DNA of 48,812 nt, from positions 1 through 48,812 of the forward strand of contig JABDGP010000017.1 in the NCBI GenBank assembly GCA_013285945.1, given 5' to 3'. This DNA is from Bacteroidota bacterium (GTDB taxonomy: Bacteria > Bacteroidota > Bacteroidia > Cytophagales > Cyclobacteriaceae). Below are positions 3,407-18,466 of this stretch, piece by piece (the first letter of the stretch is position 1; every line of letters begins with the position of its first letter). A model generated the notes under the pieces. The model did no database searches. It was not told the DNA's origin and was given only the letters and a program-made list of their open reading frames with translations. The position numbers and the translations under genes are program-made.

Positions 3407-4537
3407 CTAAAAATTGCTTTTAATGCGCACCCAAGTTTGTCTAAAAGGTTTTAAAACCGGATACCTATCCCAAAAATTATTCTTATAGTATCTATAGTCG
3501 GTGTGCTCGTTGCGTGGCGCCTCAATATAGGCTTTGAACTGTTCGTCTGTAAATCCCAACTTCTTCAACACGAATGGGTAATCGACATCATATTGAGCCT
3601 TCTCATAAATTGGCTGTTTCATTATCTTGAGCGCCTCCTCTTTCGTTATTTGTCCTGAGAAAATTAAATTCGATAAATGAGCCTTTCTCTTGTCAACATT
3701 AAATTTAGCAGGCAGAATATAGCCCTGGTAAAATCGTGTGAATACAGATTCGTAATGCTTACCCCCGTAGTCTCTCCAGCCAAGTTCTGAAGAAATTATT
3801 TTTACTACATCTTTCTTATTATAGTCAACATAATTCAATAGCGAATGAAACCGCTGACCTTTAACGCGATTATAAAAATACAGCTGTTGAGGCTTTAAAA
3901 CAGGAAAGTTTTTTAACGGAAGTTTTCCAAATTTCTTATGAATACTGATAAGATTGAGTCCGTCATTCTTATTGAATATCCAATAAGACGGTAATACCGA
4001 TTCGGTAACAATGTTTGTTCCAATGATAACATCCTTTACATTGAATTTATCTGCCAATCGTCTTGTGGCCACCATCGCCGCGTGATCTGTTATGGCTTCA
4101 ATATCCACAACGGATGCTTGAAAATAAGCCAATTGAACATCTCTAAATTCGTCCCAGTCTACAACATGGGTATATAAATCGAACTCCAGTGTTTTAGACA
4201 AGCGTTCAATATTATCAACTGCCAACTCAGAATTCCACCCATTGTCAAAATGGAATAACAAAACCCGAAGTCCAAGTTTCTTCGCGAGAAATGCCAGGTA
4301 GGTACTATCCACACCTCCACTAACGCCCAATATTGTGTCGTACTGATTACCTCTCCCCCTTAATTTCATCTTCTGAACTAACTGATTAATCTTGTCCTGA
4401 CCTTCCTGACCTGTCAGAACCGATTTCTTGGCCTTTTGATATTGCCAGTAGTAGTTACTTATTCCTTTATCATCAAAGGTAATGAGTGGGTCAGATACAT
4501 TATCCATTAAACTCAAAGAACACTGCTGATAAGTCAT
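3407..4537 (-). CDS. N-acetyl sugar amidotransferase, WbpG/WbuX family (copy 1), zinc knuckle lost
   Basis: WbpG/PseA-type enzymes use ATP and ammonia to turn an N-acetyl group into an acetamidino group, with HisH and HisF homologues supplying ammonia. Here the PP-loop ATP motif SGGVDS lies at about residues 73-78, and the rest follows the family. The usual N-terminal CxxC...CxxC pattern is reduced to C6/S9...S27/Y30, so only one cysteine remains; copy 2 at 13945 keeps all four. I place the start at ATG 4537, giving the family-typical opening MTYQQC and a 4-base gap from the GNAT gene. An in-frame ATG at 4573 would add 12 residues and overlap that gene by 32 bases. Its partners here are probably the HisF at 6695 and HisH at 8320. 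Confidence 0.82.
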   Translation of the reverse strand: MTYQQCSLSLMDNVSDPLITFDDKGISNYYWQYQKAKKSVLTGQEGQDKINQLVQKMKLRGRGNQYDTILGVSGGVDSTYLAFLAKKLGLRVLLFHFDNGWNSELAVDNIERLSKTLEFDLYTHVVDWDEFRDVQLAYFQASVVDIEAITDHAAMVATRRLADKFNVKDVIIGTNIVTESVLPSYWIFNKNDGLNLISIHKKFGKLPLKNFPVLKPQQLYFYNRVKGQRFHSLLNYVDYNKKDVVKIISSELGWRDYGGKHYESVFTRFYQGYILPAKFNVDKRKAHLSNLIFSGQITKEEALKIMKQPIYEKAQYDVDYPFVLKKLGFTDEQFKAYIEAPRNEHTDYRYYKNNFWDRYPVLKPFRQTWVRIKSNF

Positions 4538-4541
4538 ATCG

Positions 4542-5615
4542 TTAAATAAAAAATCCCTCTGTCCACAATCCATTTAAGTACCAATTGTTCACGTCAAGAA
4601 TAGATTTATTTTCATAACTACTATTCAAATTCTTGAGGACAAATTTCATGTTAATGTCGCCTCTCTCTGTTGCGCCTAGAGCCTTAAAAACTTCAAATAT
4701 TGCAGCGTTTAAGTTATTTCCGGAATTACCCCAATAAATTATTTCATTGATACCTGATATCATGAATTGTCGGACAAGCAAAAGCAACACCGGTAAAATA
4801 TCTTTCTTTTCAACACAGGTCAATTCCGAAATCGAAACCACTCCATCACGTTTTGAATAAATGCAGTGCCCGATCAACGTATTATCGTCAGAGCAAATTC
4901 CCAGGTAATCATATTTCAGGTTTGGATTATTGACTATACGCCAGGAAAGGTATTCAGGGTCTAACTGTAAGCATATTATTTCAGGGTGTTTCGCTATAAT
5001 ACTGTCATACATAAACTTAATCTTCTTCCAATCCAACTCCGATGTTGTTGTGAAATTCTCCCTTCCATTCGCCTGTATCAAAATTTTATACCTTGTCCGG
5101 AAGCTTTTGCTTTTTAATAACAGGTATTTTAATAACGCCTTTAGCGACGAGCTCGACTTATGTCGAATGTCGCGGAATGAACCGCCACTCAATCTCAATG
5201 AAGATGTGATCATACAATCAAAAGTCTCGAACTTTAGATTCTTCCGCCAGACCTTTTCCGCGGGAGTAAAGCCCCATATCATATTTGCCCCGCTCATTTT
5301 TGCCTGATCTATCGCAAAATTATATAGTTTCTCGAACAAACCTTTTCCACGGTATTCAGAATCTAAGAAACTCGATTCACTTTTAGCAGTCTGGCTTGAT
5401 TTGTTATTCAATCGCAGGTTAATAGGAAGCATCGACTGCGTTGCCACAATTTTGCTTCCATCCAACAGGTATGTAAATACCGTCTGATCGGGCAGACGTT
5501 CGAACTCCCATGTCCACACAACTTCGTTAACTGAATGCCCAAGAACTGTGTCCAGATATTTTATCAGGAAACTCCTGGGATCACCAGGTACATATCTCTT
5601 AAAGACGAGATCCAT
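4542..5615 (-). CDS. GNAT family N-acyltransferase
   Basis: The 357-residue protein has a GNAT acetyl-CoA motif A, EYRGKGLFEKLY (residues 88-99), followed by the helix and GFTPAEKVWRK, where a second GNAT element usually closes the active site. The protein is twice a minimal GNAT, and its C-terminal half carries a second, weaker GNAT-like fold (DYLGICSDDNTLIGHCIY), as in the Acetyltransf_9 and FemAB-related groups. It sits between the deacetylase gene (6 bases upstream) and the WbpG-like gene. N-acylation of an amino sugar freed by the deacetylase is plausible but unproven. Acetyl-CoA is the default donor, but other acyl groups are possible. Confidence 0.7.
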   Translation of the reverse strand: MDLVFKRYVPGDPRSFLIKYLDTVLGHSVNEVVWTWEFERLPDQTVFTYLLDGSKIVATQSMLPINLRLNNKSSQTAKSESSFLDSEYRGKGLFEKLYNFAIDQAKMSGANMIWGFTPAEKVWRKNLKFETFDCMITSSLRLSGGSFRDIRHKSSSSLKALLKYLLLKSKSFRTRYKILIQANGRENFTTTSELDWKKIKFMYDSIIAKHPEIICLQLDPEYLSWRIVNNPNLKYDYLGICSDDNTLIGHCIYSKRDGVVSISELTCVEKKDILPVLLLLVRQFMISGINEIIYWGNSGNNLNAAIFEVFKALGATERGDINMKFVLKNLNSSYENKSILDVNNWYLNGLWTEGFFI

Positions 5616-5621
5616 TGAATA

Positions 5622-6680
5622 TTATTTTTGAAAGCCTAGTGTATCAACCATTTTTTCCGCCAAACCTTCCTGTCGCCACCAACTCGCCAGTTCAGCATTT
5701 GTAGCAAACCATGGATCTTTTCTTGAAAGGTATTCTGTTATACTCTTAAATAGCTTGCCCATTTCGCCTGTAAAATTATTATTATGCCAGAGAATTGTAA
5801 AGACCCCATGACAGTTTTCTACTTCGTCAATCAGACGGGTGATCAACTTATAGGATTCTTTAGCGTCCAGTTTCAAATAGTAAAACAATGTTGCATCCAT
5901 TACAACAAGTGGTATTTCAAGTATATCAATGAATTTGCCCTCTGCTTTTTCAAAAGGAAGAAATGGATAGCACAAGCCGTTTCTAAATCCACAACAATCC
6001 GGGTATCCGAATGTAGCGTCATATAAAAAATCATTTTGCAGCAAATATCTCCAGGTGTAGGGCATGTTAAATTTAAGAAAGTGATTTCTGTAGCCAACTA
6101 CTTTGGAGGTACAAAATGACTGAAGGTTTGTTAGCTCAGATTTAATTTTGTCAGCATCATTAAAAGCCAAATGACCACCATGCAATCCAATCTCAAAACC
6201 ATTTTTTTCTAAAAGGCTTAATGACTCTTTAATTTCGAACAAGTTATAGTTATAGTCTTTTTCATGGCTGTTCAATGAGAGGAAAAAGAAAGTGGACTTC
6301 GCATTATGCTCTGAAAGAAAATTCACAACCTTTTCCACACTCCATTTGGAATTAAATCCATTAAACAAAATCTCTTTAAAATTTCCCTCTAGTTTATTCT
6401 GTTTAAAAGGTGATTTAATTAGAGATCTTAATCGGTAGGTAATCGAATTATTGAACTTCAAAAAGTCTATATCATGAGAAATCAACGCCGCAAATTTTTT
6501 ATTGTGCGGATAATGCGGTTTGAATCCCTGCTCTAATAAAGCCCGGGACAATACCGGGTTTAATATACTTGGGTTAGAAGAAAAGGCACGAGTAACCCGT
6601 CCATGTACATCCCTAAATCCCGAATGATAATCGTAAAACGAAGAATATAAATCGGCGATTTCTTCTTTTCTTAGTTCCAT
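5622..6680 (-). CDS. Polysaccharide deacetylase (NodB/CE4-like)
   Basis: CE4 enzymes remove N- or O-acetyl groups from sugars using a metal held by Asp-His-His. The sequence shows SHDID (68-72) with the motif 1 aspartate pair, STFFFLS (129-135) typical of the barrel, GLHGGH (165-170) as the metal-binding His motif, GYRNHFL (196-202) as motif 3 with the conserved Arg, and a late WHNN (about 298) for the active-site His. At 352 residues it is longer than a bare NodB domain, with about 60 extra N-terminal residues. There is no signal peptide, so it appears cytoplasmic and would act on a sugar nucleotide or lipid-linked intermediate. It lies in the first amidotransferase cluster. Confidence 0.8.
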   Translation of the reverse strand: MELRKEEIADLYSSFYDYHSGFRDVHGRVTRAFSSNPSILNPVLSRALLEQGFKPHYPHNKKFAALISHDIDFLKFNNSITYRLRSLIKSPFKQNKLEGNFKEILFNGFNSKWSVEKVVNFLSEHNAKSTFFFLSLNSHEKDYNYNLFEIKESLSLLEKNGFEIGLHGGHLAFNDADKIKSELTNLQSFCTSKVVGYRNHFLKFNMPYTWRYLLQNDFLYDATFGYPDCCGFRNGLCYPFLPFEKAEGKFIDILEIPLVVMDATLFYYLKLDAKESYKLITRLIDEVENCHGVFTILWHNNNFTGEMGKLFKSITEYLSRKDPWFATNAELASWWRQEGLAEKMVDTLGFQK

Positions 6681-6694
6681 CTTAACGTTTGTGA

Positions 6695-7462
6695 CTAAAT
6701 TTTTTCATACAGATCCGCTTTCAATCGGTCTTGTGACGGGTAGCTTATCAATACGGCTTTATGATGTCCGTGATAGACAAAGACACTACCTGCAGCCACT
6801 GCCGATGCCCCTGCGCGAACTGCATTAACAAAATCCTTTGCTTCAGACGCACCGCCGCATGCCACAATGGGTATGGATACCGATTCTGAAATCTTAGTTA
6901 TCAAATCAAGATCATACCCTGTATAGGTGCCATCTCTTTCAATGGAATGCAGTATTAACTCCCCTGCTCCACTGTCTTCCATTTTTTTTGCCATATCAAT
7001 CGGCGACATTCCCGTATTCTCCTTTCCGCTAAGGCCATAAACTTTGGGCTTGCCAAATAGATTATTTCTGTAATCAATTGAAACCACAATACTTTGTGAG
7101 CCAACCAACCTGGATCCCTCTCCCACAAGAGAGGGATTTGAATATGCAGCTGTACCGATAATCACCTTTTCGAATCCCGAAAAAATTATCCTTTTTATCT
7201 CTTCTACACTGGAAACGCCTCCGCCATAACCCATCGGCATGAAGGCCTCACCTGCGATTATCTCTATCTTTTTGAAATCTGGCTTACTTTTACTTCGGCA
7301 AACCCCGATATCCAATAACAAAAGCTCATCAACTTCCTTTTCATTAAAGATTTTCACGGCGTTAATCGGATCACCAAGGTAATTTGCATTGGCAAACTTA
7401 ACGGTTTTATAAAGTCCGTTATTCTGCATAAGCAAAACCGGAATGACACGTATCCTCCTCAT
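6695..7462 (-). CDS. HisF-like subunit of sugar amidotransferase (WbuZ-like, copy 1)
   Basis: This is a TIM-barrel homologue of the imidazole glycerol phosphate synthase cyclase subunit. It opens RRIRVIPVLLMQNNGLYK and keeps the phosphate-binding loops GYGGGVSS (79-86) and ACGGASEAKD. True HisF has Asp11 and Asp130 as catalytic residues. Here position 11 is Leu, while Asp130 in VSIDYR is retained, so cyclase chemistry is unlikely. In WbuXYZ/WbpG systems the HisF homologue is thought to pass ammonia from HisH to the amidotransferase. The start is ATG 7462 (a GTG lies just before it). The neighbouring FkbM gene ends 4 bases upstream. No histidine pathway genes are nearby, which supports a sugar role. 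Confidence 0.82.
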   Translation of the reverse strand: MRRIRVIPVLLMQNNGLYKTVKFANANYLGDPINAVKIFNEKEVDELLLLDIGVCRSKSKPDFKKIEIIAGEAFMPMGYGGGVSSVEEIKRIIFSGFEKVIIGTAAYSNPSLVGEGSRLVGSQSIVVSIDYRNNLFGKPKVYGLSGKENTGMSPIDMAKKMEDSGAGELILHSIERDGTYTGYDLDLITKISESVSIPIVACGGASEAKDFVNAVRAGASAVAAGSVFVYHGHHKAVLISYPSQDRLKADLYEKI

Positions 7463-7466
7463 CACT

Positions 7467-8309
7467 TTAACTTATTAAAGAAACTAGTTCTGCCGGGCAC
7501 AGTAGATAATCCGAATCTTCTATCCTGGTATTTATTCCGATTTCCGGCAAAATTGTAAAGCCATCGAACTCTTCGTTACTCTTTCTTATTCGTAGTAATT
7601 TATACTCTAATGATTTCATCAGGTTTTCAATTTCATTTTGCCTTAGCATGCGCTCTTTATTCTCGACAGAATAGACCGGAAGTATCTCAATTAGAATAAA
7701 TGGTCGCTGATCAGCCACCACTTCTTTTATTCCTTTCAGAACCATGGATTCAGCTCCTTCAACATCAATTTTGATAATGGATATAGCCTGATTTTCTAGC
7801 AGAGGTCTAATTCCATCGCCGCCAAAGCATGGAACAAACTCCCTTCTAAAAATTGTTTGAGGCCTGAAATCTTTCACAATAGAAGCAGAGCTATCGCTGT
7901 TTCCATCGGAATAAAAATACAACGTTGCAATTTGATCGCTATCTGATATTCCAACAGGCACGAGATCAGTATTACTAAAACGATTTGACCGGATCAATTC
8001 CCTTGTGTAAAAAATACAAACGGGGTTAGGATCAAAGCCCAGGTAGGCAATCTCACGATTGATCAGTTTAAGTTTGATGAGCGTTTGCCCGACATTGACA
8101 CCTACATCAATAAAAGTTCCTTTTTTTATTTTCAATAGTTTGTAGATCACTTCACTCATCCATAATTCAGTTAAGCTCAAATTTTCTTTGCCCAATGATT
8201 TTATAATTGGAATAACAACCGTCTTACCCTTATCTGAATGTGATATTTGAAAATTGAAATAATCCAATAGGCGCAATTTAGACAGCACCCTCACTAGAAG
8301 TTTTTGCAT
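7467..8309 (-). CDS. FkbM family methyltransferase
   Basis: The SAM-binding motif FIDVGVNVGQTLIKL begins near residue 66, and the FkbM signature IIKIDVEGAESMVLKGI lies in the second half. Members methylate hydroxyl groups on sugars or polyketides. I chose ATG 8309 (280 residues, MQKLLVRV), which leaves 10 bases after the HisH stop. A TTG at 8336 in the same frame would overlap HisH and adds a non-family leader. The gene is inserted between hisH and hisF of the first amidotransferase triad, so it probably modifies the same sugar or a neighbouring one. The exact position methylated is unknown. Confidence 0.82.
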   Translation of the reverse strand: MQKLLVRVLSKLRLLDYFNFQISHSDKGKTVVIPIIKSLGKENLSLTELWMSEVIYKLLKIKKGTFIDVGVNVGQTLIKLKLINREIAYLGFDPNPVCIFYTRELIRSNRFSNTDLVPVGISDSDQIATLYFYSDGNSDSSASIVKDFRPQTIFRREFVPCFGGDGIRPLLENQAISIIKIDVEGAESMVLKGIKEVVADQRPFILIEILPVYSVENKERMLRQNEIENLMKSLEYKLLRIRKSNEEFDGFTILPEIGINTRIEDSDYLLCPAELVSLIS

Positions 8310-8319
8310 GTTGGCTACG

Positions 8320-8937
8320 TTAATAGTTATTAACAAAGTTGCTCAAGATCTGAAGTCCAAATCGATGGCTCTTTTCAGGATGGAATTGGACGCCGATAAT
8401 ATTATCGTGCTCAAAGCCTGCGACAAAATTATATCCGTAATTACAGTGAGTCAGTTCATTCTCTGCGCTATTACAGACCAAGTGGTAACTGTGAACAAAA
8501 TAAAAACGGGGTGTTTCCGAAAATCCCCCAAACAATCTTGAACTTGCCTTATAAGTTACATCAGACCAGCCCATGTGCGGAATTTTCATCCCTTTCTCAA
8601 GCATTGGTTTTGTAAATGCTACAGTTTTTCCGTCGATCCAACTAAGGCCTGGTTCATTACCTTCGTCACTTCCCTTTGTAAAAAGCTGAGCACCAAGGCA
8701 GATACCTAAAATTGTGATTTTGTCATCTAGTACCCTTTTATTCAAGACCTCTTGCAGGCCCGATTGTTTCAAGTTCCTCATCCCATAATCAAAGTGACCT
8801 ACCCCCGGCAAAATTAATTTGTCAGCACTGGCAATATCCTCCGCTTTATCAGAAATCACTGCCTCACCGCCAACCTTCCGAATCATATTGGCTATAGACT
8901 GCAAGTTGCCGGTTTTATAGTCAACGATGGTTATCAA
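8320..8937 (-). CDS. hisH: HisH-like glutamine amidotransferase subunit (WbuY-like, copy 1)
   Basis: A class I glutaminase domain of 205 residues that releases ammonia from glutamine. The nucleophile Cys80 is in ILGICLGAQL, and His186 and Glu188 are in QFHPEKSH, so the triad is complete. The N-terminus MITIVDYKTGNLQSI and the ILPGVGHFDYGM loop are typical of HisH. The position in a glycan locus, with a HisF homologue two genes downstream and a WbpG homologue beyond, indicates the sugar-amidination version rather than histidine synthesis. A possible internal promoter (TATTTTTG) lies 30 bases before the start, after the flippase gene, so this second half of the locus may have its own transcript. 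Confidence 0.85.
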   Translation of the reverse strand: MITIVDYKTGNLQSIANMIRKVGGEAVISDKAEDIASADKLILPGVGHFDYGMRNLKQSGLQEVLNKRVLDDKITILGICLGAQLFTKGSDEGNEPGLSWIDGKTVAFTKPMLEKGMKIPHMGWSDVTYKASSRLFGGFSETPRFYFVHSYHLVCNSAENELTHCNYGYNFVAGFEHDNIIGVQFHPEKSHRFGLQILSNFVNNY

Positions 8938-8966
8938 AATGCAGAGTTTTTAAATTATTGGTAATG

Positions 8967-8974
8967 CAAAAATA
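8967..8974 (-). promoter_or_regulatory. Candidate -7 box before the hisH copy 1 gene
   Basis: On the minus strand the 49-base gap between wzx and hisH contains TATTTTTG, an exact match to the Bacteroidota -7 consensus TAnnTTTG, 30 bases before the ATG. No clear TTTG at the expected -33 spacing is visible, so this could be chance in AT-rich DNA. It is one of the few gaps in the otherwise gapless operon, which makes an internal promoter plausible. Confidence 0.3.
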
Positions 8975-8986
8975 GAACAATGAACG

Positions 8987-10402
8987 TCACACATTTATAT
9001 TACTCAAAACCTTTTTGAACCTTACAAAAACGATCAACCCCAAAGCGGTTGTTGCTATAGATACCACTACCTTAATATACAGAGAAGCATCTTTAAGAAT
9101 GTAAACAAGAACCAGTGTTGCAATAATAGCTACAATCCATACCGTAGGGAAATAATCTGCATTTTCCATTTGCCGATAGGTTTTCAGAAAAAAGCCGGAG
9201 AACCCAATATATAATAAGCCTACAAAGCTGGTAATCGCTGCCACCTGAAAACCATAAATGGGGATAAAAATAAAATTGAGAATGATATTAATCACCCCGG
9301 CAATAAATGAAATTCTCCACATGACTTGAGTTTGTTCATAGTATGCGAGCTTATTTACGACAGCCCAGTACAAAGGGCGATAGTTATATCCCATTACCAC
9401 AATTATGGCCAGGTAATAACCACTTTGCAAATCCGGATTCTTAATCAGTAATCCAAACAATTCTTTAAGCCACAGACAAACAAGAAAGCTGCCTATAAGA
9501 AAGCATGCCTGCAATGCAAAAGTAATAGAGCGTACATCTCCTTCCCTCTTCAAAGAATAAAGTTGAGTGTAAATAGGCCCAACAGCCATGCCAATGGCAC
9601 CGCCGACGAAATCGAAATAGTTACCGAAAGTATAGGCAATGTTGTAAATGCCGATTTGACTAATCCGTATTCCGAGCACGTTCATCACTAGGCGGTCTGA
9701 TGTATTCAGTAAATAAGATGCATAGCTATGCGGCACCATCGGCAATGCAACTTTAAGTTGATGCCGAATGAATTTCATCCTCACCTTAAAAATTGGAGCC
9801 AGTTTGTATTTAAAGTATAAAGGAAAAAAATAGAAAAGGAATGAAACAAACGTACCCAGGAAAGTTGAGATAAACCATCCCATATATCCCATTTTGAAAT
9901 AAGATATTGTAATTAGGTTCAGCGCTATGCTCAGGGTTCCAACAATGGCAGAAGTCATAGCCATATACAAATGGCGCTGAACAAATTGATAATACCGACC
10001 TCCGAACATGATTGTGGTATCAAAAAAAAGCGACGAAATTGCGCTAAGCAGTATTATTATCCACATGTTGATCTGCGCCTCATGTGGAATAATAAAGTAA
10101 AGCAACACCGACTGCATTAATGCATAAGGAAATGACCATAACGATAAGTAACCATGAAGCTGACGCCAGCTGGTTTGCCACCGCGTAGGATACTTATAAA
10201 ATAGATTTGATAGGTTGACTGCTATGCCCAAGTCTTTGATTCCGCCAAGCAATCCAGTGTAGGCAATTACAACGCCGTAAACTCCATAATCAACTGCAGT
10301 AAGGTCTTTTGTAATAATTGGCAAGACAAAAAAGCTGGCAATCCTGGGAAGTTGAGGGCCGAGTGCGTAGATCAAAGTATGGCTGACTAGCTTCTTAATC
10401 AT
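8987..10402 (-). CDS. wzx: Wzx-type oligosaccharide flippase
   Basis: A polytopic membrane protein of 471 residues with about a dozen hydrophobic segments spread over its whole length. It begins with the MOP/Wzx pattern LIYALGPQLPRIASFFVLPIITKDL and a segment around NTSDRLVMNVLG, which is typical of polysaccharide flippases. It would move undecaprenyl-linked repeat units across the inner membrane. It overlaps the preceding gene (10399-11943) by 4 bases (ATGA), so it is translationally coupled. Presence of Wzx together with Wza and Wzc points to a Wzx/Wzy pathway, although no Wzy polymerase is visible in this window. Confidence 0.85.
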   Translation of the reverse strand: MIKKLVSHTLIYALGPQLPRIASFFVLPIITKDLTAVDYGVYGVVIAYTGLLGGIKDLGIAVNLSNLFYKYPTRWQTSWRQLHGYLSLWSFPYALMQSVLLYFIIPHEAQINMWIIILLSAISSLFFDTTIMFGGRYYQFVQRHLYMAMTSAIVGTLSIALNLITISYFKMGYMGWFISTFLGTFVSFLFYFFPLYFKYKLAPIFKVRMKFIRHQLKVALPMVPHSYASYLLNTSDRLVMNVLGIRISQIGIYNIAYTFGNYFDFVGGAIGMAVGPIYTQLYSLKREGDVRSITFALQACFLIGSFLVCLWLKELFGLLIKNPDLQSGYYLAIIVVMGYNYRPLYWAVVNKLAYYEQTQVMWRISFIAGVINIILNFIFIPIYGFQVAAITSFVGLLYIGFSGFFLKTYRQMENADYFPTVWIVAIIATLVLVYILKDASLYIKVVVSIATTALGLIVFVRFKKVLSNINV

Positions 10403-11943
10403 TTTCTTTTAACAATAGCCTCACTAAGAAACCGCTTGCAATTGCCTAAATAATCCGGAGCGTACAGACGATTACCCCAATAGGTCATTTCTTTAATCTG
10501 GTCCGTGTAAAAATTAGAATTGGCAAGCAAATCTCTTAATACTTCAGAAAGCAAATCGATATTATTTATAGGAATGATTCTTATGATTGCCTCTAGCCCC
10601 ATTTCAGAAAAAAATTCATGTACTCCTCTGGGTGCGGAAGGTGTGCCAATAGTGAAAGTTGGTCTGAATAAACTCACAGACTCTAATAATACGGCCGAAT
10701 CAAACCCAATAACAACGTGTGCCTCAGAAATGATTTGATAAATATCAACATCACACTCTACAACTTCGATAAACCCCGGGTATTCACTGGCAAATCGCCT
10801 GTATGAAATAATATTAGAATTTGGTTCTAAGGGATGAAGCTTTAAAATAAGTTTAAACTCCAAGGATTCTTCCTTCAATCGGTTCAACAACATCAATATT
10901 TCTGGAAAGACAGTATACTGAGTTGGAATTAAAACATTCTTCTTTCTAAATGAGATTTGTTTCTTATATCCGTTTGTTTTGTTTCTATTAAAAAACATTC
11001 TTGCGCTTCCCAGAGTAATAATTTTGTTATCATTCCAAAACCCATTTGCTCTAAGAATATCTTTGTGCAATGATCCAAAAACCCCAAGATAGGTTGGAAG
11101 CGAAAAGCTATTTTGAGAATCATTCAACTTGGCTGAAAAAGTATATTGTGGGTGATGTTGATCAATTATCCCATGCTGCAAATCAATTGACTTGACTCCA
11201 AGGGAATTAGCAGCGCCTAACAGTCCGCATCCAGTCTGTTCGGAACAAAACAATATTGAAGGTCGCGTGATCTTAAGTAAAACTATTGCAACCCAATACT
11301 CCAAAAAGAAGGAGTTTATAATTCTAATTACATCAGAATTTGAAAAATTAAATTCACGTTGTTCGCTTTTAAAATGAGCCTTTAATATTTGCTCAAGGCG
11401 GAGAGCCTGAGCAAATATTAGTTTCCTTTTGGTAATTAACAGAAACCTGAAGATGAAGTGAAGAGGATATAATCTATCCAGTTTTAAATCGATTTCGATT
11501 GGTGATGGTTTTCTGAAATCTCCTCCCAAAGACTTTTCCATATACAAGTAATCTTCCACAAGGCCTTCAGTTATAAATGCGTCAGTTAAGAAATTATAAT
11601 ATGCTCCTTTCTCATCTCTCGAAAGTTTGTCACCAGAGTTGGTATAAAAAACGGCTAAATTTCCTTTGAAAATTCTCTTTCTGAAGAGTGACAAAAAAGA
11701 AAATACTAATAATAGAAAATCATAAATTTTTACTATTTGTAAATGAATCCTTTTTCTTAAAGAGTCACTCTTTTGAACCCTCGCTTTAGAGTTCTCATCA
11801 GGCTTGACAAATTGCATGAATAGGGGAAATTTCACAATTTGCCAAACGTTATGGTTAGAGATTCTTATATCTAGAATGTCGGATTTATAATTTGATTCAA
11901 ATTTATGAAATGACCTACCCAAAAAATCTCTATTTGTCATCAT
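10399..11943 (-). CDS. GT-B-like glycan transferase (capsule-type, KpsS/glycerophosphotransferase-like)
   Basis: A 514-residue protein with no firm family assignment. The centre reads LGVKSIDLQHGIIDQHHPQY, a motif seen in capsule transferases and CDP-glycerol transferase-like GT-B enzymes, followed by LGVFGSLHKDIL, LILKLHPLEP and HVVIGFDSAVLLE, the order expected for the donor-binding domain. The first 180 residues are unlike these families and basic, and could bind the membrane or a partner. It ends in a 4-base overlap with wzx. It may transfer a nonulosonic acid, since sialyltransferase-like GT-B proteins share the HP motif, but this is a guess. It starts with two ATG codons; the first is used here. 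Confidence 0.5.
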   Translation of the reverse strand: MMTNRDFLGRSFHKFESNYKSDILDIRISNHNVWQIVKFPLFMQFVKPDENSKARVQKSDSLRKRIHLQIVKIYDFLLLVFSFLSLFRKRIFKGNLAVFYTNSGDKLSRDEKGAYYNFLTDAFITEGLVEDYLYMEKSLGGDFRKPSPIEIDLKLDRLYPLHFIFRFLLITKRKLIFAQALRLEQILKAHFKSEQREFNFSNSDVIRIINSFFLEYWVAIVLLKITRPSILFCSEQTGCGLLGAANSLGVKSIDLQHGIIDQHHPQYTFSAKLNDSQNSFSLPTYLGVFGSLHKDILRANGFWNDNKIITLGSARMFFNRNKTNGYKKQISFRKKNVLIPTQYTVFPEILMLLNRLKEESLEFKLILKLHPLEPNSNIISYRRFASEYPGFIEVVECDVDIYQIISEAHVVIGFDSAVLLESVSLFRPTFTIGTPSAPRGVHEFFSEMGLEAIIRIIPINNIDLLSEVLRDLLANSNFYTDQIKEMTYWGNRLYAPDYLGNCKRFLSEAIVKRK

Positions 11944-11958
11944 TAAAGACTAAGGAGT

Positions 11959-12915
11959 CTATTTGTAGTTACTCATTTTCCTGTAAACCGATTCGATCAT
12001 TTTCATCTGCTCATGAATATTTAAGAAGTTTGAGTATTCTGCATTAATAAATGCTTTTGTTTGTAAGTAAAGTCCCGGCTTAAATTGTGTATCTAAGCTT
12101 TCATCAAACTCAACAAAATTGACCACTGTTGATCCAATATCTTGTACTTGCAATTTTTCCATAGGCTTAAAAATGAAGCGATGCTTTTTGGTAAGTACCT
12201 CTAAAACCCAGCGACCAGGAGCCTCCCAATTAGCATTATAAGAAAACAACGCTCCTTTATCACTTACACCAGCTCCTGCAAACACTGATGAAGCCGGATG
12301 CCAATCTAAACCACCTTTATGATATGCCGAGATTTCAGTCGGGCTACCACCGAGATAAAATGCTGTATCGATTACATGAGACGAATTGCCTAAAAACCAA
12401 TTGTTATGCTCAGTTATCGTTTTTTTTAAATTTTTAATAGAATGTGACCATTCTGTAAATTCAAACTGAAATGAACTAACTCCACCATCATTTTCTATTA
12501 ATTCTTTAGCTTTAATAACAGACGCATAAAATCTTCGATTATAAGCTAGAAAAACCAATGCTCCCTTTTCACTTGTTAATTTTGCCAGGAATTGAATTTC
12601 ACTGGCATACCCTACTCCAGGCTTTTCCAGTAGAATACTACTAACACCATAATTCAACAAAAGAATTGCAACTTCAGACAATGATTCAACCCCTACCGAA
12701 ACAATAGCACATTTCGGGATTGCAGGTTCTGTCTGCAAGTATTTTTCTACTCCGCCTTCGATAGCTTGAACATTCGTTAATTTAAAAAAATCTTTACAAC
12801 TCTTGACACTTCGTCCGATTACTGTGTAGGAGCAACTCAAAGTATCCAAGACCTTAGCATACTCAACTGCCATCAAGCCTGAGCCTATTAGCCAGATGTT
12901 CTCTTTGTTGGCCAT
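11959..12915 (-). CDS. Gfo/Idh/MocA family oxidoreductase
   Basis: The 318-residue protein has an N-terminal Rossmann domain with WLIGSGLMAVEYAK (about 9-22) for NAD(P) and a LLEKPGVGYASE segment near residue 95, where the catalytic Lys of the EKP motif sits. A second domain contains NRRFYASV and NNWFLGNSSHVIDTAFYLGG, the usual active-site His region. Members oxidise, reduce or dehydrate sugar nucleotides. It is paired with a paralogue immediately upstream (9-base gap). It is shorter than most members (about 330-370). The substrate is not known; modification of the nonulosonic acid or of its precursor fits the context. Confidence 0.75.
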   Translation of the reverse strand: MANKENIWLIGSGLMAVEYAKVLDTLSCSYTVIGRSVKSCKDFFKLTNVQAIEGGVEKYLQTEPAIPKCAIVSVGVESLSEVAILLLNYGVSSILLEKPGVGYASEIQFLAKLTSEKGALVFLAYNRRFYASVIKAKELIENDGGVSSFQFEFTEWSHSIKNLKKTITEHNNWFLGNSSHVIDTAFYLGGSPTEISAYHKGGLDWHPASSVFAGAGVSDKGALFSYNANWEAPGRWVLEVLTKKHRFIFKPMEKLQVQDIGSTVVNFVEFDESLDTQFKPGLYLQTKAFINAEYSNFLNIHEQMKMIESVYRKMSNYK

Positions 12916-12924
12916 ATGTGAACA

Positions 12925-13935
12925 TTATGTTATTGGAAATTTCTCTTTATAGGTCTTACTTAGTGCCAACCATTGAAACAGCAATTCATGAACCTTCAAT
13001 GTATCATGAAGTAGCGGAAGGTTATTTTCACCTTTTTCAATAATTCCACTAATCCATTCTTTAGTTAAATCGCCTAAAAAGGGTGACTCAATTTTCCCAA
13101 TGTCAGCCCGAAGGTAGTCACCTGCGTAGCGATTGATTGGCAATGTGCTTTCAGCTTTACGCAAAATATTAATCCGCTCCCCCTCAAGTTCATTTATCCT
13201 AATTCGCCCGTGTGTTCCTATAATCTCCCATCCACCAAAAACCGTGCTAGTGGCAGATAATGAAAAAAGTGACCTTCCAATAAAATTATTAGAATCATCA
13301 TAAAATTTAAAGCAAGCCCAACCACCGAAATCCGCAAACTGTTCTCCCCTGCCGCTAGGAATCAATTCAGAATCTATTTCCCCCGCAGCTACTTCGGCTC
13401 TAGAAGCACCAAATAGAAAAAACAAAATATCTAAATAGTGAATTCCGTTTGCGCCTATGCCTAAAGTACCACCTTGGTAATTTATTGAATTGATTATTTT
13501 GAATTGTGGTAGTGTTGTCAAATCACTTTTCAGTCTTTTTATAAAGGGATACATTCTCATATTCAGATTAACTGAAACGTTGACATTTTCATTTGACAAA
13601 AAATCTATGATATTTTTAACTTCCTCTAGGCTCTGTCCAAGTGGTTTTTCAATAAGGATTTGAGACGGGCTAAAATTTAGAACTAGTCTACAAGTTGCAA
13701 TCCGACTGTCGGCAGTAGAGGCAATTATTACAAAATCAAAATGTCCTTTTACTTCATCAGTTTTGCAAAATATTAACTTATTATAGTTCGCATCAGAAGA
13801 AAGTTGTTGCTTAGCATTATACAGAGAAGGGTCATTGATATCGCAAATGCATATCTTGAATATCTCTCGAACCTGAAGTGCACCAATACAATGCCGAATA
13901 CCCATTCTACCAGCTCCAATTATCAGAAGAGTCAT
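12925..13935 (-). CDS. Gfo/Idh/MocA family oxidoreductase
   Basis: A 336-residue protein opening TLLIIGAGRMGIRHC, a dinucleotide-binding loop, with the catalytic EKPLGQSLEEV segment around residue 95 and the NLNMRMYPF strand after it. The C-terminal domain carries the HYLDILFFLFGA motif, where a conserved His is expected. It follows the second WbpG-like gene after 9 bases and precedes another oxidoreductase, so the two probably act on the same sugar in sequence. In nonulosonic acid loci of other bacteria such enzymes sit next to amidotransferase genes, but their reactions are mostly untested. The product is unknown. Confidence 0.78.
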   Translation of the reverse strand: MTLLIIGAGRMGIRHCIGALQVREIFKICICDINDPSLYNAKQQLSSDANYNKLIFCKTDEVKGHFDFVIIASTADSRIATCRLVLNFSPSQILIEKPLGQSLEEVKNIIDFLSNENVNVSVNLNMRMYPFIKRLKSDLTTLPQFKIINSINYQGGTLGIGANGIHYLDILFFLFGASRAEVAAGEIDSELIPSGRGEQFADFGGWACFKFYDDSNNFIGRSLFSLSATSTVFGGWEIIGTHGRIRINELEGERINILRKAESTLPINRYAGDYLRADIGKIESPFLGDLTKEWISGIIEKGENNLPLLHDTLKVHELLFQWLALSKTYKEKFPIT

Positions 13936-13944
13936 AAAAAAAAT

Positions 13945-15195
13945 TTATTGATCTTGTTTAATATCATCAGCACCATCGTTATTTACGGTGTGCCTTAATT
14001 TCCAAGTCCCATTTTGATTAGCCCACAAATGCGGAGAGCGAAATTTGTCGGCCAGTTCGTGAAAATGTGCTGGCTTCATTTCGATATACTCCATAATTTC
14101 ATTAAAATAGGTATCTGGAAATTCCCCGTCGAATTTTTTTACTAACGTCTGGCCTTCATTGCGCGTGAGGTGCTGATTGCGTATTTCCTGAGAAGCATCG
14201 TATGTAGCTCGTCCAATGCCAAATTTGATGAACGTGGTATAGTAATGCAAATCGTCAATCTTGTCGTCTATACTATTGTACTTGCTGTAGGTTCCCTGAG
14301 TACGAAATGGCCGGGCCTTAAAACCTGTATTCTCCACTGCGTAATAATAAACCTCTTGGGGAGTCCATCTCAAATAGTACCCTAAATAGTGTACCTGAAT
14401 TTTTGCCTTCTCAACCTCATCAGCCGGAGCTGGCAAGAACGCCATCAAATCTGAGAGAGGAACGTTGTATTTTTCTCTAAGTTCTTTAATGGAAACGCCT
14501 CCAAGGTACAATTCATCAATATGACTAAACGTGTGAAATGACTTATCTCGAAGTGACGATGAATTGTCAGCAATCGGATTTCCATATTCGGCCTCGTTTT
14601 CGCCATAAAATATCAAAGGAATATCAAAGCGGGCGGCGATTTTAGGAGCCAGATTTTTTTGTCCAAGTATAAAGGTTTGAAAGGGGTGAAAAATATTTTC
14701 GATGGAAAGTTTGGTCAATAGCTTCATAACTTTGCCATTCCTGTAAAAGCTAATGTTATCAAATCCCGAGTCAAGCCAATTTTGCCAATTCTTGCGGCCG
14801 TAATCAGTATACAGAATTGGCGGCCATGTGACCGTCAGGGGGTTCATACCATATTTATATTTCAAAACATGAGCCTGAAATGCGCTATCTTTTCCACCGC
14901 TGCCTGGAACAAGGCAATCGTAATGACCATCGTTGCGTCTGTATTTATCAAGCAGTTGAAGCAGTTCACCCTCTCTTTTTTTCCAATCAATTTTTTCTTT
15001 GATCTCAGCGGTTCTGCATGCATCACAAACGCCTTCGGCATCAATATTAAGAGTAACTTTTTTACTGTTGATAGTATGCTTAAACTCAACAGTAGATGCA
15101 GGTCGTTGGTTCGACATTACGCATTTACTGCAAAACTTTACTTCACGGGGCAGCCCGTATTTCACTTCAAGTTCGTTTTTAGTTTGATCAATCAT
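13945..15195 (-). CDS. N-acetyl sugar amidotransferase, WbpG/PseA/PtmG family (copy 2)
   Basis: It is expected to convert an N-acetyl group of a sugar to an acetamidino group. At 416 residues it keeps the N-terminal zinc-type cysteines C22, C25, C57 and C60 and the PP-loop PGSGGKDSA (97-105). It is followed by WPPILYTDYG and the NENEAEYG-like segment GENEAEYG, typical of the family. It lies directly after hisH and hisF copies (16 and 1 base gaps), and the triad follows the complete legionaminic acid genes, so a 5-acetamidino legionaminic acid derivative is the simplest reading, as for PtmG in Campylobacter. That substrate is inference; other sugars made here are possible. Confidence 0.85.
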   Translation of the reverse strand: MIDQTKNELEVKYGLPREVKFCSKCVMSNQRPASTVEFKHTINSKKVTLNIDAEGVCDACRTAEIKEKIDWKKREGELLQLLDKYRRNDGHYDCLVPGSGGKDSAFQAHVLKYKYGMNPLTVTWPPILYTDYGRKNWQNWLDSGFDNISFYRNGKVMKLLTKLSIENIFHPFQTFILGQKNLAPKIAARFDIPLIFYGENEAEYGNPIADNSSSLRDKSFHTFSHIDELYLGGVSIKELREKYNVPLSDLMAFLPAPADEVEKAKIQVHYLGYYLRWTPQEVYYYAVENTGFKARPFRTQGTYSKYNSIDDKIDDLHYYTTFIKFGIGRATYDASQEIRNQHLTRNEGQTLVKKFDGEFPDTYFNEIMEYIEMKPAHFHELADKFRSPHLWANQNGTWKLRHTVNNDGADDIKQDQ

Positions 15196-15211
15196 AGCCG
15201 CTACAGTCTCT

Positions 15212-15859
15212 TTATATTAAGTTGTTCATCATTGCCCAGTCTTTATAAATTTTAACCCCGACCTCTGTGCTTTTTTCAGGATGGAATTGGGTTGCAAAGA
15301 TATTATCTTTAAAAACACCAGAGCAATAAACATTATCGCCATACTTTGTTGTAGTCAGAGTAACTCTGTTATCTAATGGAATCGCATAGTAGGAATGCAC
15401 AAAGTACATATATGAATTGGCAGGAATGCTCTTCAACGGAGTAGCTTGCCAGGGTATCCCTGCAGTAGAAATTGTATTCCAACCTATTTGGGGCACCTTA
15501 ACCGGTTCATTATCAGATGTTTTCAATTTTCTAATCTCTCCATGAATCATATCCAGACCGGGTGTATCGCCAAACTCTTCGCTCTTTGTAAATAGTAGTT
15601 GCATCCCCAGACACACACCCATCAATGGCTTTCCAGAAGTCACAAAATCATGAAGTGGCGAAATAAGGTCCATGCTTTCCAAGTTGGACATAGCATCTGC
15701 AAATGAACCGACTCCGGGAAGAATGATAGCATCTGCATCTTCGAGGGCTTTCTTATTCCTGGTTATTTCCACACTTAAGCCAATTGCCTCACAGGCCAAC
15801 TGAACACTAAACAAGTTGCCCAAATCGTAGTCAATAATAACTACACTTCTTTTTTTCAT
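15212..15859 (-). CDS. hisH: HisH-like glutamine amidotransferase subunit (copy 2)
   Basis: A 215-residue class I glutaminase with the nucleophile Cys83 in LMGVCLGMQLLF and His193/Glu195 in TQFHPEKS, so all catalytic residues are present. The opening SVVIIDYDLGNLFSVQ and ILPGVGSFADAM are standard HisH. It starts 1 base after the hisF copy 2 stop and ends before the WbpG copy 2, so the three are one translational unit. In this setting it supplies ammonia for sugar amidination, not imidazole glycerol phosphate synthesis. It differs clearly from copy 1 (for example FVTSGKPLM against VLDDKITIL), so the two triads are not a recent duplication. Confidence 0.87.
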   Translation of the reverse strand: MKKRSVVIIDYDLGNLFSVQLACEAIGLSVEITRNKKALEDADAIILPGVGSFADAMSNLESMDLISPLHDFVTSGKPLMGVCLGMQLLFTKSEEFGDTPGLDMIHGEIRKLKTSDNEPVKVPQIGWNTISTAGIPWQATPLKSIPANSYMYFVHSYYAIPLDNRVTLTTTKYGDNVYCSGVFKDNIFATQFHPEKSTEVGVKIYKDWAMMNNLI

Positions 15860-15860
15860 A

Positions 15861-16709
15861 TTAATGTCTGCATTCGTAAAAATGAGAAAGGAGATATTGC
15901 TTTATTTCAACAATACCAGTAGGTGCAATCTTTTGAAACGTGCGATTGCTCTTAAGGAACTCTATATTACCTTCTGTGCGATGGTGCATTGTATGTGCAT
16001 TTTTCTTTATAAAGTCATAGTGGAGAATTGAGGCGACAGCGATCGCATCAGCTTTCCCGGTTTTCAAAACTGCGTCAATATCTTTCAACTTCCCTGGGCC
16101 TCCATGCGCTATCACAGGAATCGAAACATTTTCAGAAATCAACCTAGTTAACTCAATGTCATATCCAGTTCCTGTACCTTCATTATCAACACTCGTTATA
16201 ACCAATTCCCCTGCACCCAGTTCCTCTACTTTTTTAGCCCACGCCAAAACTTCAATCCCAGTATGCTCTCTTCCGTTATCGATGTACGCCAGATAACTTC
16301 CGTTAGCCTGTCTGATAGCTTCGATTGCCACTACAACAGTGGAGCTTCCAAATTTACGAGAAGCTTCTTTAATGATGGCCGGGTTTCTTACCGCCGCAGT
16401 ATTTAACGAAACCTTATCTGCGCCTGCACGCAGAACGGACCTAATATCTGATATAGTTCTTATGCCGCCACCAACAGTTAACGGAATAAATGTTCGTTTT
16501 GCAGTCTTGGATATTATTTCGTGAAGGCTATTGCGCTCATACAAACTGGCAACTACGTCCATGTACATCAGTTCATCTGCGCCTTGTTCATAATAATATT
16601 GAGCGAAGTCTTCGGGCCTGCCAAGTACTCTAAGTCCTTCCAGGTGTATACCCTTTACCAGGTTTGGCCCTTTTATATCTAACCGGGGGATCACCCTTAC
16701 ATTTGCCAT
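15861..16709 (-). CDS. hisF: HisF-like subunit of sugar amidotransferase (copy 2)
   Basis: A TIM-barrel HisF homologue of 282 residues. The start RVIPRLDIKGPNLVKG retains Asp11, but the position of Asp130 is Glu130 (VVVAIEAIR), the reverse of copy 1, which keeps Asp130 and lacks Asp11. The phosphate loops VGGGIRT (79-85) and AHGGPGKLKD are present. The C-terminus extends about 25 residues past a typical HisF, ending in a His- and Cys-containing tail (LSHFYECRH). It is probably an ammonia channel and docking subunit for WbpG. The gene starts 21 bases after the legF stop, inside the legionaminic acid block. Confidence 0.85.
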   Translation of the reverse strand: MANVRVIPRLDIKGPNLVKGIHLEGLRVLGRPEDFAQYYYEQGADELMYMDVVASLYERNSLHEIISKTAKRTFIPLTVGGGIRTISDIRSVLRAGADKVSLNTAAVRNPAIIKEASRKFGSSTVVVAIEAIRQANGSYLAYIDNGREHTGIEVLAWAKKVEELGAGELVITSVDNEGTGTGYDIELTRLISENVSIPVIAHGGPGKLKDIDAVLKTGKADAIAVASILHYDFIKKNAHTMHHRTEGNIEFLKSNRTFQKIAPTGIVEIKQYLLSHFYECRH

Positions 16710-16730: not shown

Positions 16731-17423
16731 CTATTCGGGTTTCCAGTAACCTTTTGAAATTAAAAACTCGCAATATGCAAAATCGAGAGGGGTATCTATA
16801 TCAATTGATTTAATCTCATCCATTTCAAACTTAAGAACGCTCGAAAACTCTTTGATCGACCGATCCATTAAGGACTTGACATTGATTACATAAATCGCTC
16901 CGTTCGCCTGATAAACTTTCGGTGCAGCCTGTCGTGTATCGAATTGGCCACTCTTTGCCTTTACCAACACTCCTCTTTCTTCTTCAAACAATAAATAGTA
17001 TGGATTTGCTTTCGTTTCAAATACAGACATTACCATGTCGATTTCACTATGATAAAGCGTCAACGCATTTTTTATATCAGGTGTAGTGCGAAAAGGGCTT
17101 GTCGGCTGAAGTAACACAATAGCATCGTATACTTTCCTTTGCTCCTCATAAAAGTTAAGAGCATGATGTAAAACCACGTCCATAGAAGAATCATCTGATG
17201 CTAATTCTACCGGTCGCAGGAATGGAACACTTATCCCTGTCTCTTCGGCCACGCTCTTAATCGCAGGGTCATCTGTGGAAATGCAGATGTTGCTGGCGGA
17301 GGTCAATCTTAGAGCTGCTTCAATAGAATAGTGAATGAGCGGCTTTCCATTCAAAAGTTTCGTATTTTTTCCAGGTAAGCCTTTAGATCCGCCACGAGCA
17401 GGTATAATGTAGAGAACCTCCAT
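16731..17423 (-). CDS. legF: CMP-N,N'-diacetyllegionaminic acid synthase (acylneuraminate cytidylyltransferase family)
   Basis: The enzyme joins CTP and a nonulosonic acid to give the CMP-sugar. The 230 residues start with IIPARGGSKGLPGKNTK (residues 5-21), the cytidylyltransferase P-loop-like motif with the Arg and Lys that bind CTP. LQPTSPFRT (about 105-113) and the late DIDTPLDFAYCE (metal-binding Asp) follow. CMP-sialic, pseudaminic and legionaminic synthases share this fold; legionaminic is chosen because LegB, LegC, LegG, LegI and PtmE homologues are adjacent. The start codon ATG overlaps the ptmE stop by one base (TGATG), suggesting coupled translation. Confidence 0.85.
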   Translation of the reverse strand: MEVLYIIPARGGSKGLPGKNTKLLNGKPLIHYSIEAALRLTSASNICISTDDPAIKSVAEETGISVPFLRPVELASDDSSMDVVLHHALNFYEEQRKVYDAIVLLQPTSPFRTTPDIKNALTLYHSEIDMVMSVFETKANPYYLLFEEERGVLVKAKSGQFDTRQAAPKVYQANGAIYVINVKSLMDRSIKEFSSVLKFEMDEIKSIDIDTPLDFAYCEFLISKGYWKPE

Positions 17424-18466
17424 CAGAATTTGATGTATTTTATATCTTCATTGGCTTTGGCGTAGTCTTCATGTTTTCCTACATCAAGCCAGTACCCCGT
17501 CATCGGATATGAAATTACCCGCTTACCGTTTTCAATAAGTTGCTCCATTAGATCTGTAGCATTAAAAAAACCATCGGGTATGTATTTAAGCGTTTCTCTT
17601 TTTATTAAATAAATACCAGCATTTGAATGATAGGTATACGTTGGCTTTTCGCGAAAACTGACGACATGACCGTTGGTGGTTTCCAAAACTGCGTAGGGCA
17701 CGTTTACATTATATGGAACGGTGGCAACTGCGAGATCGGCATCCTCGGCAAGAAACTTACTATAAAATTTCTGATAGTCGAGATTGGTCAGTATATCAGA
17801 GTTAATAACCAAAAGATGATTGTGCATGAAATCAGAAATAGTTCGAGCTGCGCCAAGAGTACCAAGAGGCTTTTCTTCTTTCACGTATGTAATATTAATT
17901 CCTTTGCTTGAGCCGTCCTGAAAGTAACTCTCGATCTGTTCACCCAAGTAGCCGATGCACAGCCAAAAATTCTCTACTCCAAAATTAACAAGGCTATCTA
18001 TAGAGTGCTCCAATATCGGTTTGCTTCCGACTCGTAAAAGGGGCTTGGGGGTTTTTTCTGTCAATGGTCTTAAGCGTCTTCCTTCGCCGCCAGCCATGAT
18101 CACGACATCGAGAGGCAAAATCGTTCGGAGTATTGAAAGGTTAAGTAGTTTCAGGATTTTACCATCATCATCCAGTAAAGGCAAAAGCTTTATACCTAAC
18201 TCCTTTAATGCCTCAACCTTTTCAAGCTCGTCTCCGCCCCTTTTTGCAAAGCGAAAGTTTGAAAACATAACCTTCTCAACGGGGTCGGACAATGTGAGGC
18301 TATTTAGCAGCCCTCTTCTTATGTCACCATCCGTTATTGTTCCAAGCAGAATCCCATTTTCATTTAAAACAAATAGAGTCAAATCTTCTCCTAATTCATT
18401 TAATTGAGACAGGGCATCAGAAATTGATCCACTATATAAAATAGTATGTTTTTGAGGATCAATCAT
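17423..18466 (-). CDS. ptmE: Glucosamine-1-phosphate guanylyltransferase, CBS-nucleotidyltransferase fusion (PtmE-like)
   Basis: The first 115 residues form a CBS pair (LGTITDGDIRRGLLN and KLLPLLDDDGKIL), and the rest is a nucleotidyltransferase with AGGEGRRLRP (125-134), TPKPLL and a C-terminal GYWLDVGKHEDY. This is the layout of Campylobacter PtmE, which makes GDP-glucosamine for the GDP route to legionaminic acid. The CBS pair may sense a nucleotide. It lies between legG (4-base overlap) and legF. Other sugar-phosphate nucleotidyltransferases with CBS domains exist, so the GTP and glucosamine specificity is inferred from context. Confidence 0.82.
   Translation of the reverse strand: MIDPQKHTILYSGSISDALSQLNELGEDLTLFVLNENGILLGTITDGDIRRGLLNSLTLSDPVEKVMFSNFRFAKRGGDELEKVEALKELGIKLLPLLDDDGKILKLLNLSILRTILPLDVVIMAGGEGRRLRPLTEKTPKPLLRVGSKPILEHSIDSLVNFGVENFWLCIGYLGEQIESYFQDGSSKGINITYVKEEKPLGTLGAARTISDFMHNHLLVINSDILTNLDYQKFYSKFLAEDADLAVATVPYNVNVPYAVLETTNGHVVSFREKPTYTYHSNAGIYLIKRETLKYIPDGFFNATDLMEQLIENGKRVISYPMTGYWLDVGKHEDYAKANEDIKYIKF

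Follow-up and report, generated by a model that had tools for sequence, protein, structure and literature searches.

Two probable sugar-amidination triads with different HisF clades, and an amidotransferase lacking its family's zinc motif, in a Bacteroidota polysaccharide locus

Why a single surface-polysaccharide locus should carry two sets of genes related to the glutaminase and cyclase subunits of histidine biosynthesis is the question raised by contig JABDGP010000017.1 (assembly GCA_013285945.1) of a Bacteroidota bacterium of the family Cyclobacteriaceae. The 48,812 nucleotides that we analysed, referred to here as the window, are contig C17 of a source genome that comprises 130 contigs and is 77.7% complete, and the minus strand holds the polysaccharide locus, whose named genes lie between 26.7 kb and 0.3 kb. 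A first inspection made without database searches (the sequence-only reading) had proposed two WbuX/HisH/HisF homologue triads for sugar amidination, whose HisF subunits have lost opposite catalytic aspartates. All six genes were confirmed as open frames on the minus strand, triad 1 within 3407-8937 and triad 2 within 13945-16709, and their gene content and residues support two sugar-amidination triads. Both are of amidination types already known; what is new is that one amidotransferase, WbuX1, lacks the zinc motif, a condition met repeatedly among related proteins. We consider it likely that each triad is a dedicated, glutamine-dependent machine for sugar amidination, with HisF serving as the ammonia conduit to WbuX.

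In the HisF cyclase, D11 is the general acid and D130 the general base, as described in a passage of PMC11350729. HisF residues were numbered here by alignment to HisF-LUCA (4evz), which has its aspartates at 11 and 130. In these alignments HisF1 (6695-7465) has Leu11 and Asp130 and HisF2 (15861-16709) has Asp11 and Glu130, which upholds the assignments previously made by eye, and neither copy has both aspartates. Relatives were classed by their better score against window copy 1 or copy 2, residues 11 and 130 not being used, giving 99 class-1 rows (one gene is present twice, in L121 and L159; L numbers denote fetched stretches) and 20 class-2 rows including the window; four loci fetched twice were left out of the counts, as was the genome's own histidine HisF, which has both aspartates and scored into class 2. 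At position 11 the class-1 rows have Leu (88), Thr (6), Gln (2), Ser (1), Tyr (1) or a gap (1), Asp11 being absent from 98 of the 98 rows with a residue there, and at position 130 they have Asp (95), Asn (2) or Pro (2). Class 2 shows the opposite pattern, with Asp11 in 20/20 and, at position 130, Glu in 19, Gln in one and Asp in 0/20. As a control, 28 different HisF from 31 loci, obtained by search as non-members of both classes, had Asp at 11, 130 and 176 in 28/28; within their 1.5-kb flanks HisA was found in 17/28 and WbuX in 0/28, with neither in 11. Both HisF classes were supported clades (Shimodaira-Hasegawa-like approximate likelihood ratio test 98 and 99; class 1 subsampled to 34 rows), while none of the three possible groupings (class 1 with class 2, class 2 with ordinary HisF, class 1 with ordinary HisF) was rejected. 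Because the residue patterns hold across each class, the opposite losses in the window are real but are not events in this locus; judged from the alignments, they are fixed traits of two HisF clades as sampled. The C-terminus of HisF2 (window 15861-15992) also carries an extension of ~30-40 residues, which is common to the copies of L111-L113, L130 and L260 and absent from the remaining class-2 HisF aligned.

Residues, model cut-offs and a separate his run led us to reject extra his copies as the explanation of the triads, and it is extremely improbable that they are spare imidazole glycerol phosphate synthase copies for histidine synthesis. HisF2 could suggest such a role, since it reaches 265.3 bits on the histidine HisF model (TIGR00735) and has Asp11, K19, N103, T104 and T171, but this score, like the 181.4 bits of HisF1, lies below the cut-off of 294.55. 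Moreover, within each sampled clade one catalytic residue is consistently replaced, each HisF stands in a run with WbuX, and a separate HisH-HisA-HisF run, whose HisF has both aspartates, is present on contig C64 of the same genome, which also disposes of the possibility that a third full his operon uses the triad genes. As for the earlier statement that neither HisF should make imidazole glycerol phosphate, the case is firm for copy 1, with Leu for the general acid; it is weaker for copy 2, in which Glu is still a carboxylate and, as K19, N103, T104 and T171 indicate, more of the old active site is retained (N103, T104 and T171 occur in 20/20 class-2 rows).

The ammonia-delivery role previously suggested for both copies is supported by conserved residues in the two subunits. 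R5, E46, K99 and E167, which we take to be the ammonia-gate residues of HisF, are retained throughout both classes; the sole departures are gaps at 5 and 46 in L201, which a contig end cuts short. The full Cys-His-Glu triad is present in both window HisH copies, confirming the first inspection, and in 42 of 43 HisH rows, one row being the genome's own histidine HisH. The exception (L105 2176-2694) is a truncated HisH that lacks the His-Glu part and adjoins WbuX, with no HisF found in the fetched stretch. From gene content, residues, clade-wide patterns, nonulosonate-gene linkage and predicted fold, we infer that HisH would free ammonia from glutamine, that HisF, no longer a cyclase, would pass it through the barrel past the R5/E46/K99/E167 gate, and that the PP-loop of WbuX, with adenosine triphosphate (ATP), would activate the N-acetyl carbonyl of a sugar so that the channelled ammonia converts acetamido to acetamidino. 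Triad 2 would very probably convert a cytidine monophosphate (CMP)-linked legionaminic-type acid to its 5-acetamidino form, and the substrate of triad 1 would be a different N-acetylated nucleotide sugar, for which a 2,3-diacetamido uronic acid is a candidate, with a WbuX that would work without a zinc site. HisF could instead be more than a conduit, its barrel mouth still binding a ligand that carries phosphate, either ATP or a nucleotide sugar, and that activates HisH, with the kept aspartate of each clade serving there. The retention of G82, G177, G202 and G203 (in 95-98 of 98 class-1 and 9/9 class-2 rows), of Asp130 in 95/99 class-1 rows and of Asp11 in 20/20 class-2 rows agrees with this idea, whereas S201, T171 and N103 are variable in class 1 and neither aspartate remains in four HisF of that class; we regard it as possible but rather unlikely.

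The zinc tetracysteine motif CxxC...CxxC has been called characteristic of the N-acetyl sugar amidotransferase (NASAT) family (PMC10607449). WbuX2 (13945-15195) has all the marks of that family, scoring 358.5 bits on TIGR03573 (cut-off 203.2), with the PP-loop SGGKDS and all four zinc cysteines (CCCC). WbuX1 (3407-4573) likewise exceeds the model cut-off (259.4 bits), has the PP-loop SGGVDS and retains a confident predicted fold, but its zinc positions read C-S-S-Y, the first cysteine being kept and the other three lost, so that the tetracysteine motif is missing. The sequence-only reading had overlooked this loss. The full motif was absent from 57 of 129 class-1 WbuX, with recurring replacements, and well-supported branches forced at least seven changes of state. 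Judging from these patterns, WbuX1 probably lacks zinc and remains active, working without the zinc site of its family. It is improbable that triad 1 is instead a decaying or inactive copy. The disappearance of three of four zinc cysteines and the other genes interspersed among those of the triad could be taken as signs of decay, but the frames are intact and tightly packed, the PP-loop and the HisH triad are retained, the WbuX1 fold is predicted with confidence, and the same motif is incomplete in the 57 class-1 WbuX with their recurring replacements. Neither the opposite aspartate losses nor zinc-motif loss was found reported in our literature searches, among the matches listed and with most subscription journals outside their scope.

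In the single-pair loci of WbuX1 type, the zinc state of WbuX was compared with the residues of the partner HisF. Cys73 was present in 30/40 HisF paired with full-motif WbuX and in 6/42 others, Cys9 in 21/40 and 1/42, and both together in 19/40 and 1/42; C73 and C9 were the top two among 494 residue tests. When relatedness was considered, four supported independent pairs were left and significance was unreachable. HisF had 1.74 cysteines per protein with motif-less WbuX and 2.85 with full-motif WbuX, and a general avoidance of cysteine in the loci was unsupported, other matched frames having 1.30 vs 1.43% Cys (p 0.34). Thr or Ser at HisF position 11 was confined to pairs with motif-less WbuX (7/82 pairs; too few lineages). 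We tentatively propose, stopping just short of favouring it, a wider view in which the zinc knuckle is dispensable, active enzymes having dropped it repeatedly while always keeping the first cysteine, with Ser, Thr or Gly for the others and a mostly aromatic fourth residue; in which the two conduit HisF clades each keep a different half of the acid-base pair; and in which HisF Cys9 and Cys73 may vary together with the WbuX1 zinc state, hinting at an interface or a redox exposure that the two proteins share.

We next consider which sugars the two triads may modify. Triad 2 is contiguous, in the order WbuX2-HisH2 (15212-15859)-HisF2, and nonulosonate-type genes lie directly upstream on the same strand. 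HisH2 scores 208.3 bits on TIGR01855 (cut-off 105.4), and HisF2, which has Glu176 in addition to Asp11 and Glu130, has a predicted model with a mean predicted local distance difference test score of 87.7. The upstream genes, all on the minus strand, are a CMP-nonulosonate cytidylyltransferase-like gene (16731-17423); a sugar-1-phosphate nucleotidyltransferase with an N-terminal extension (17423-18466), presumably PtmE-like, which NTP-transferase models match from about residue 120, all below cut-off among the matches listed; a NeuC/LegG-type uridine diphosphate-sugar 2-epimerase (18463-19563; TIGR03568 377.2 bits, cut-off 235.9); a NeuB/LegI-type nonulosonate synthase (19560-20573; TIGR03569 483.2 bits, cut-off 399.65); a NeuD-type sugar acetyltransferase (20566-21219; TIGR03570 206.7 bits, cut-off 160.8); a LegC aminotransferase (21219-22370; TIGR04181 514.7 bits, cut-off 420); and a LegB 4,6-dehydratase (22363-23361; TIGR04180 493.1 bits, cut-off 475). 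By position we take this series to be LegF, PtmE, LegG, LegI, LegH, LegC and LegB, and a legionaminic pathway is indicated by the LegB, LegC, NeuC-, NeuB- and NeuD-type models, all over cut-off. Across the related loci, nonulosonate-type genes (a LegI, LegG, LegF or PtmE homologue above 100 bits, the queries being window proteins, so that pseudaminic and neuraminic genes count too) were found in 20/20 class-2 stretches and in 15 of 113 class-1-only stretches; among the latter, L125 and L127 continue L124 and L126, and L118 and L261, as continuations of two-triad loci, were placed in neither group. A passage of PMC3766260 assigns to a Legionella ORF homologous to ptmG, which may differ from the 8wex protein, the conversion of CMP-Leg5Ac7Ac to CMP-Leg5Am7Ac. 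On this genomic evidence, triad 2 very probably serves the amidination of a legionaminic-type sugar.

Triad 1 had been described as dispersed, and instead its genes form one co-directional run on the minus strand with neighbour spacing of -32 to 14 bases; because neighbours overlap or lie no more than 14 bases apart, it reads as a single transcription unit. HisH1 (8320-8937) has a TTG start and scores 220.2 bits on TIGR01855, and HisF1 has a GTG start. Interspersed are a GNAT-family acetyltransferase gene (4542-5615; PF00583 28.3 bits, cut-off 20.7), a polysaccharide-deacetylase-like gene (5622-6680; PF01522 22.3 bits, under the cut-off of 23.1) and an FkbM-type methyltransferase gene (7467-8336; PF05050 38.3 bits, cut-off 22.7). 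The deacetylase-like product has a weak likeness to VimE (NF053580 95.5 bits, cut-off 440), a model named for 2,3-diacetamido-glucuronate deacetylase; among the related stretches, homologues above 60 bits were found for this protein in 2 and for the GNAT protein in 0. HisF1 exceeds the cut-off of NF038364 (336.7 vs 310), an equivalog model of the already curated AglZ/HisF2 "acetamidino modification protein" family, and by these scores triad 1 is of the AglZ/HisF2 type. In the tree of WbuX1 relatives, the five closest rows are all Bacteroidota. By representative likeness, the neighbour clusters of class-1 loci include a DegT aminotransferase (46 stretches), a Gfo/Idh dehydrogenase (29), an asparagine-synthase-like amidotransferase (26), a WecB-type epimerase (24), FnlA (14) and WbcJ (12). 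On a Massilia litorea plasmid, HisH, AglZ/HisF2 and NASAT genes lie near GNAT and polysaccharide-deacetylase genes, with a nucleotide-sugar dehydrogenase, Gfo/Idh, acyltransferase and DegT set nearby. On contig C7 of the window's own genome (L305 7633-12520), nucleotide-sugar dehydrogenase, GalE-type, DegT, hexapeptide acetyltransferase and Gfo/Idh genes follow one another, and this run could make a 2,3-diacetamido uronic acid, which we offer as a lead and not as a result. The C7 run is followed by RmlA- and RmlB-type genes (L305 5150-12520 overall), and appears as a second polysaccharide locus.

The suggestion that two triads imply two different sugars very probably holds, as the WbuX proteins are highly divergent and an association with nonulosonate genes is seen for the triad-2 type alone. 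In BLAST, the sole match between WbuX1 and WbuX2 with E <0.3 covers 44 residues at the PP-loop, and HisF1 and HisF2 are 36% identical over 211 residues. Because the WbuX proteins are so divergent and align only around the PP-loop, and with the HisF classes being separate supported clades, a recent local duplication of one triad was rejected. Both triads could still modify one nonulosonic acid at two nitrogen positions, as they lie in one co-directional run next to one legionaminic-type set. We consider this unlikely, since 98 of the 113 class-1-only stretches have no nonulosonate-type gene (short stretches miss more distant genes) and the frequent class-1 neighbours include the FnlA- and WbcJ-type genes and the WecB-type epimerase. 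Class-1 and class-2 triads within about 13 kb of each other were found in 5 of 133 classable stretches. Besides the window, these are L130 (genome G187, of the window's phylum), L252 (Roseateles asaccharophilus, Pseudomonadota), L258 (genome G786, from the same phylum as Roseateles) and L260 (from an Anaerolineales record), the four other genomes thus spanning more than one phylum; in L262 (Rubrivivax rivuli), triad 1 is paired with a third type. This third type, a class-1-like HisF beside a WbuX2-like protein near nonulosonate-type genes, occurs in L117 8673-11330 and L262 15279-18008.

Several observations weigh against two dedicated machines with distinct sugars. No nucleotide-sugar pathway of its own was recognised for triad 1 among the window genes scanned, and the cytidylyltransferase near triad 2, at 136.3 bits on the PseF model, is below the cut-off of 205.7. 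L117 (with Tyr11) and the second triad of L262 pair nonulosonate-type genes with a class-1-like HisF, so HisF class and sugar are not one-to-one. The four class-1 HisF without both aspartates (L174, L187, L194 and L204) and three full-length WbuX relatives whose PP-loop does not fit the strict pattern (L103, L116 and L189) belong here as well.

Some of the variant proteins have further peculiarities. The HisF of L194 9148-9957 and L174 3804-4580 (Sphingopyxis) have Thr11 and Pro130, and their partner WbuX has the incomplete zinc motif C-T-C-W. The class-2 WbuX of L116 10578-11768 and L189 3140-4393 have SGGKDG for SGGKDS, and the class-1 WbuX of L103 has SGSLDS.

Among known systems, the Legionella NASAT (8wex)/PtmG module is the closest to triad 2, with WbuX2 matching 8wex, the solved Legionella pneumophila enzyme, in phmmer at E 1.4e-158, the four zinc cysteines and PP-loop kept, and nonulosonate genes adjacent; it differs in that the window HisF2 falls below the WbuZ, hisF and AglZ/HisF2 model cut-offs. 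Triad 1 resembles the AglZ/HisF2 system in its HisF1 score, in Leu11 and in having WbuX and HisH in the run, but WbuX1 has no zinc motif and the GNAT, deacetylase-like and FkbM genes are interspersed. The WbuXYZ set of E. coli O145 (L-FucNAm), of which WbuX is named in PMC10607449, has the same three gene types, although HisF1 (259.2 bits) and HisF2 (271.4 bits) are both below the 299.7 cut-off of the WbuZ model TIGR03572; among the window genes compared with NCBIfam, none was reported to match an FnlA or WbcJ model. Imidazole glycerol phosphate synthase HisFH shares homologous subunits, the HisH triad and the HisF ammonia-gate residues, and differs from the window triads in the replacement of Asp11 or Asp130, the third partner WbuX alongside and the separate his run. 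In a colony-morphology screen of Sphingomonas sp. LM7, transposon insertions were recovered in WbuX (12), AglZ/HisF2-type (10) and HisH (9) genes of one polysaccharide cluster, according to a passage of PMC11340318; what that passage reports is genetic support that the three genes matter for one glycan, though not support for amidination as such.

In the sets examined, residues 11 and 130 provide a simple rule, ordinary HisF having Asp at both and amidination HisF lacking D11 or D130, which could correct the labelling of amidination genes as extra histidine genes. Section 3.2.7 of PMC8305728 takes the second hisF2/hisH2 set found in three Bacteroidota/Chlorobiota strains to be further histidine genes, and the same two residues would tell whether the genes described in that section encode amidination subunits. 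The recurrent loss of the zinc motif indicates that a "characteristic" amidotransferase feature is not needed for the survival of the gene, and a comparison of natural enzymes that have or lack this feature could test its role. Two-triad loci likewise make it possible to ask, in a natural setting, whether each HisF-HisH pair serves its own WbuX exclusively. Two or three WbuX per HisH, with one or two HisF, were seen in the fetched stretches L122, L124/L125, L126/L127 and L135, with L122 and L135 each containing one WbuX that has the zinc motif and one that lacks it.

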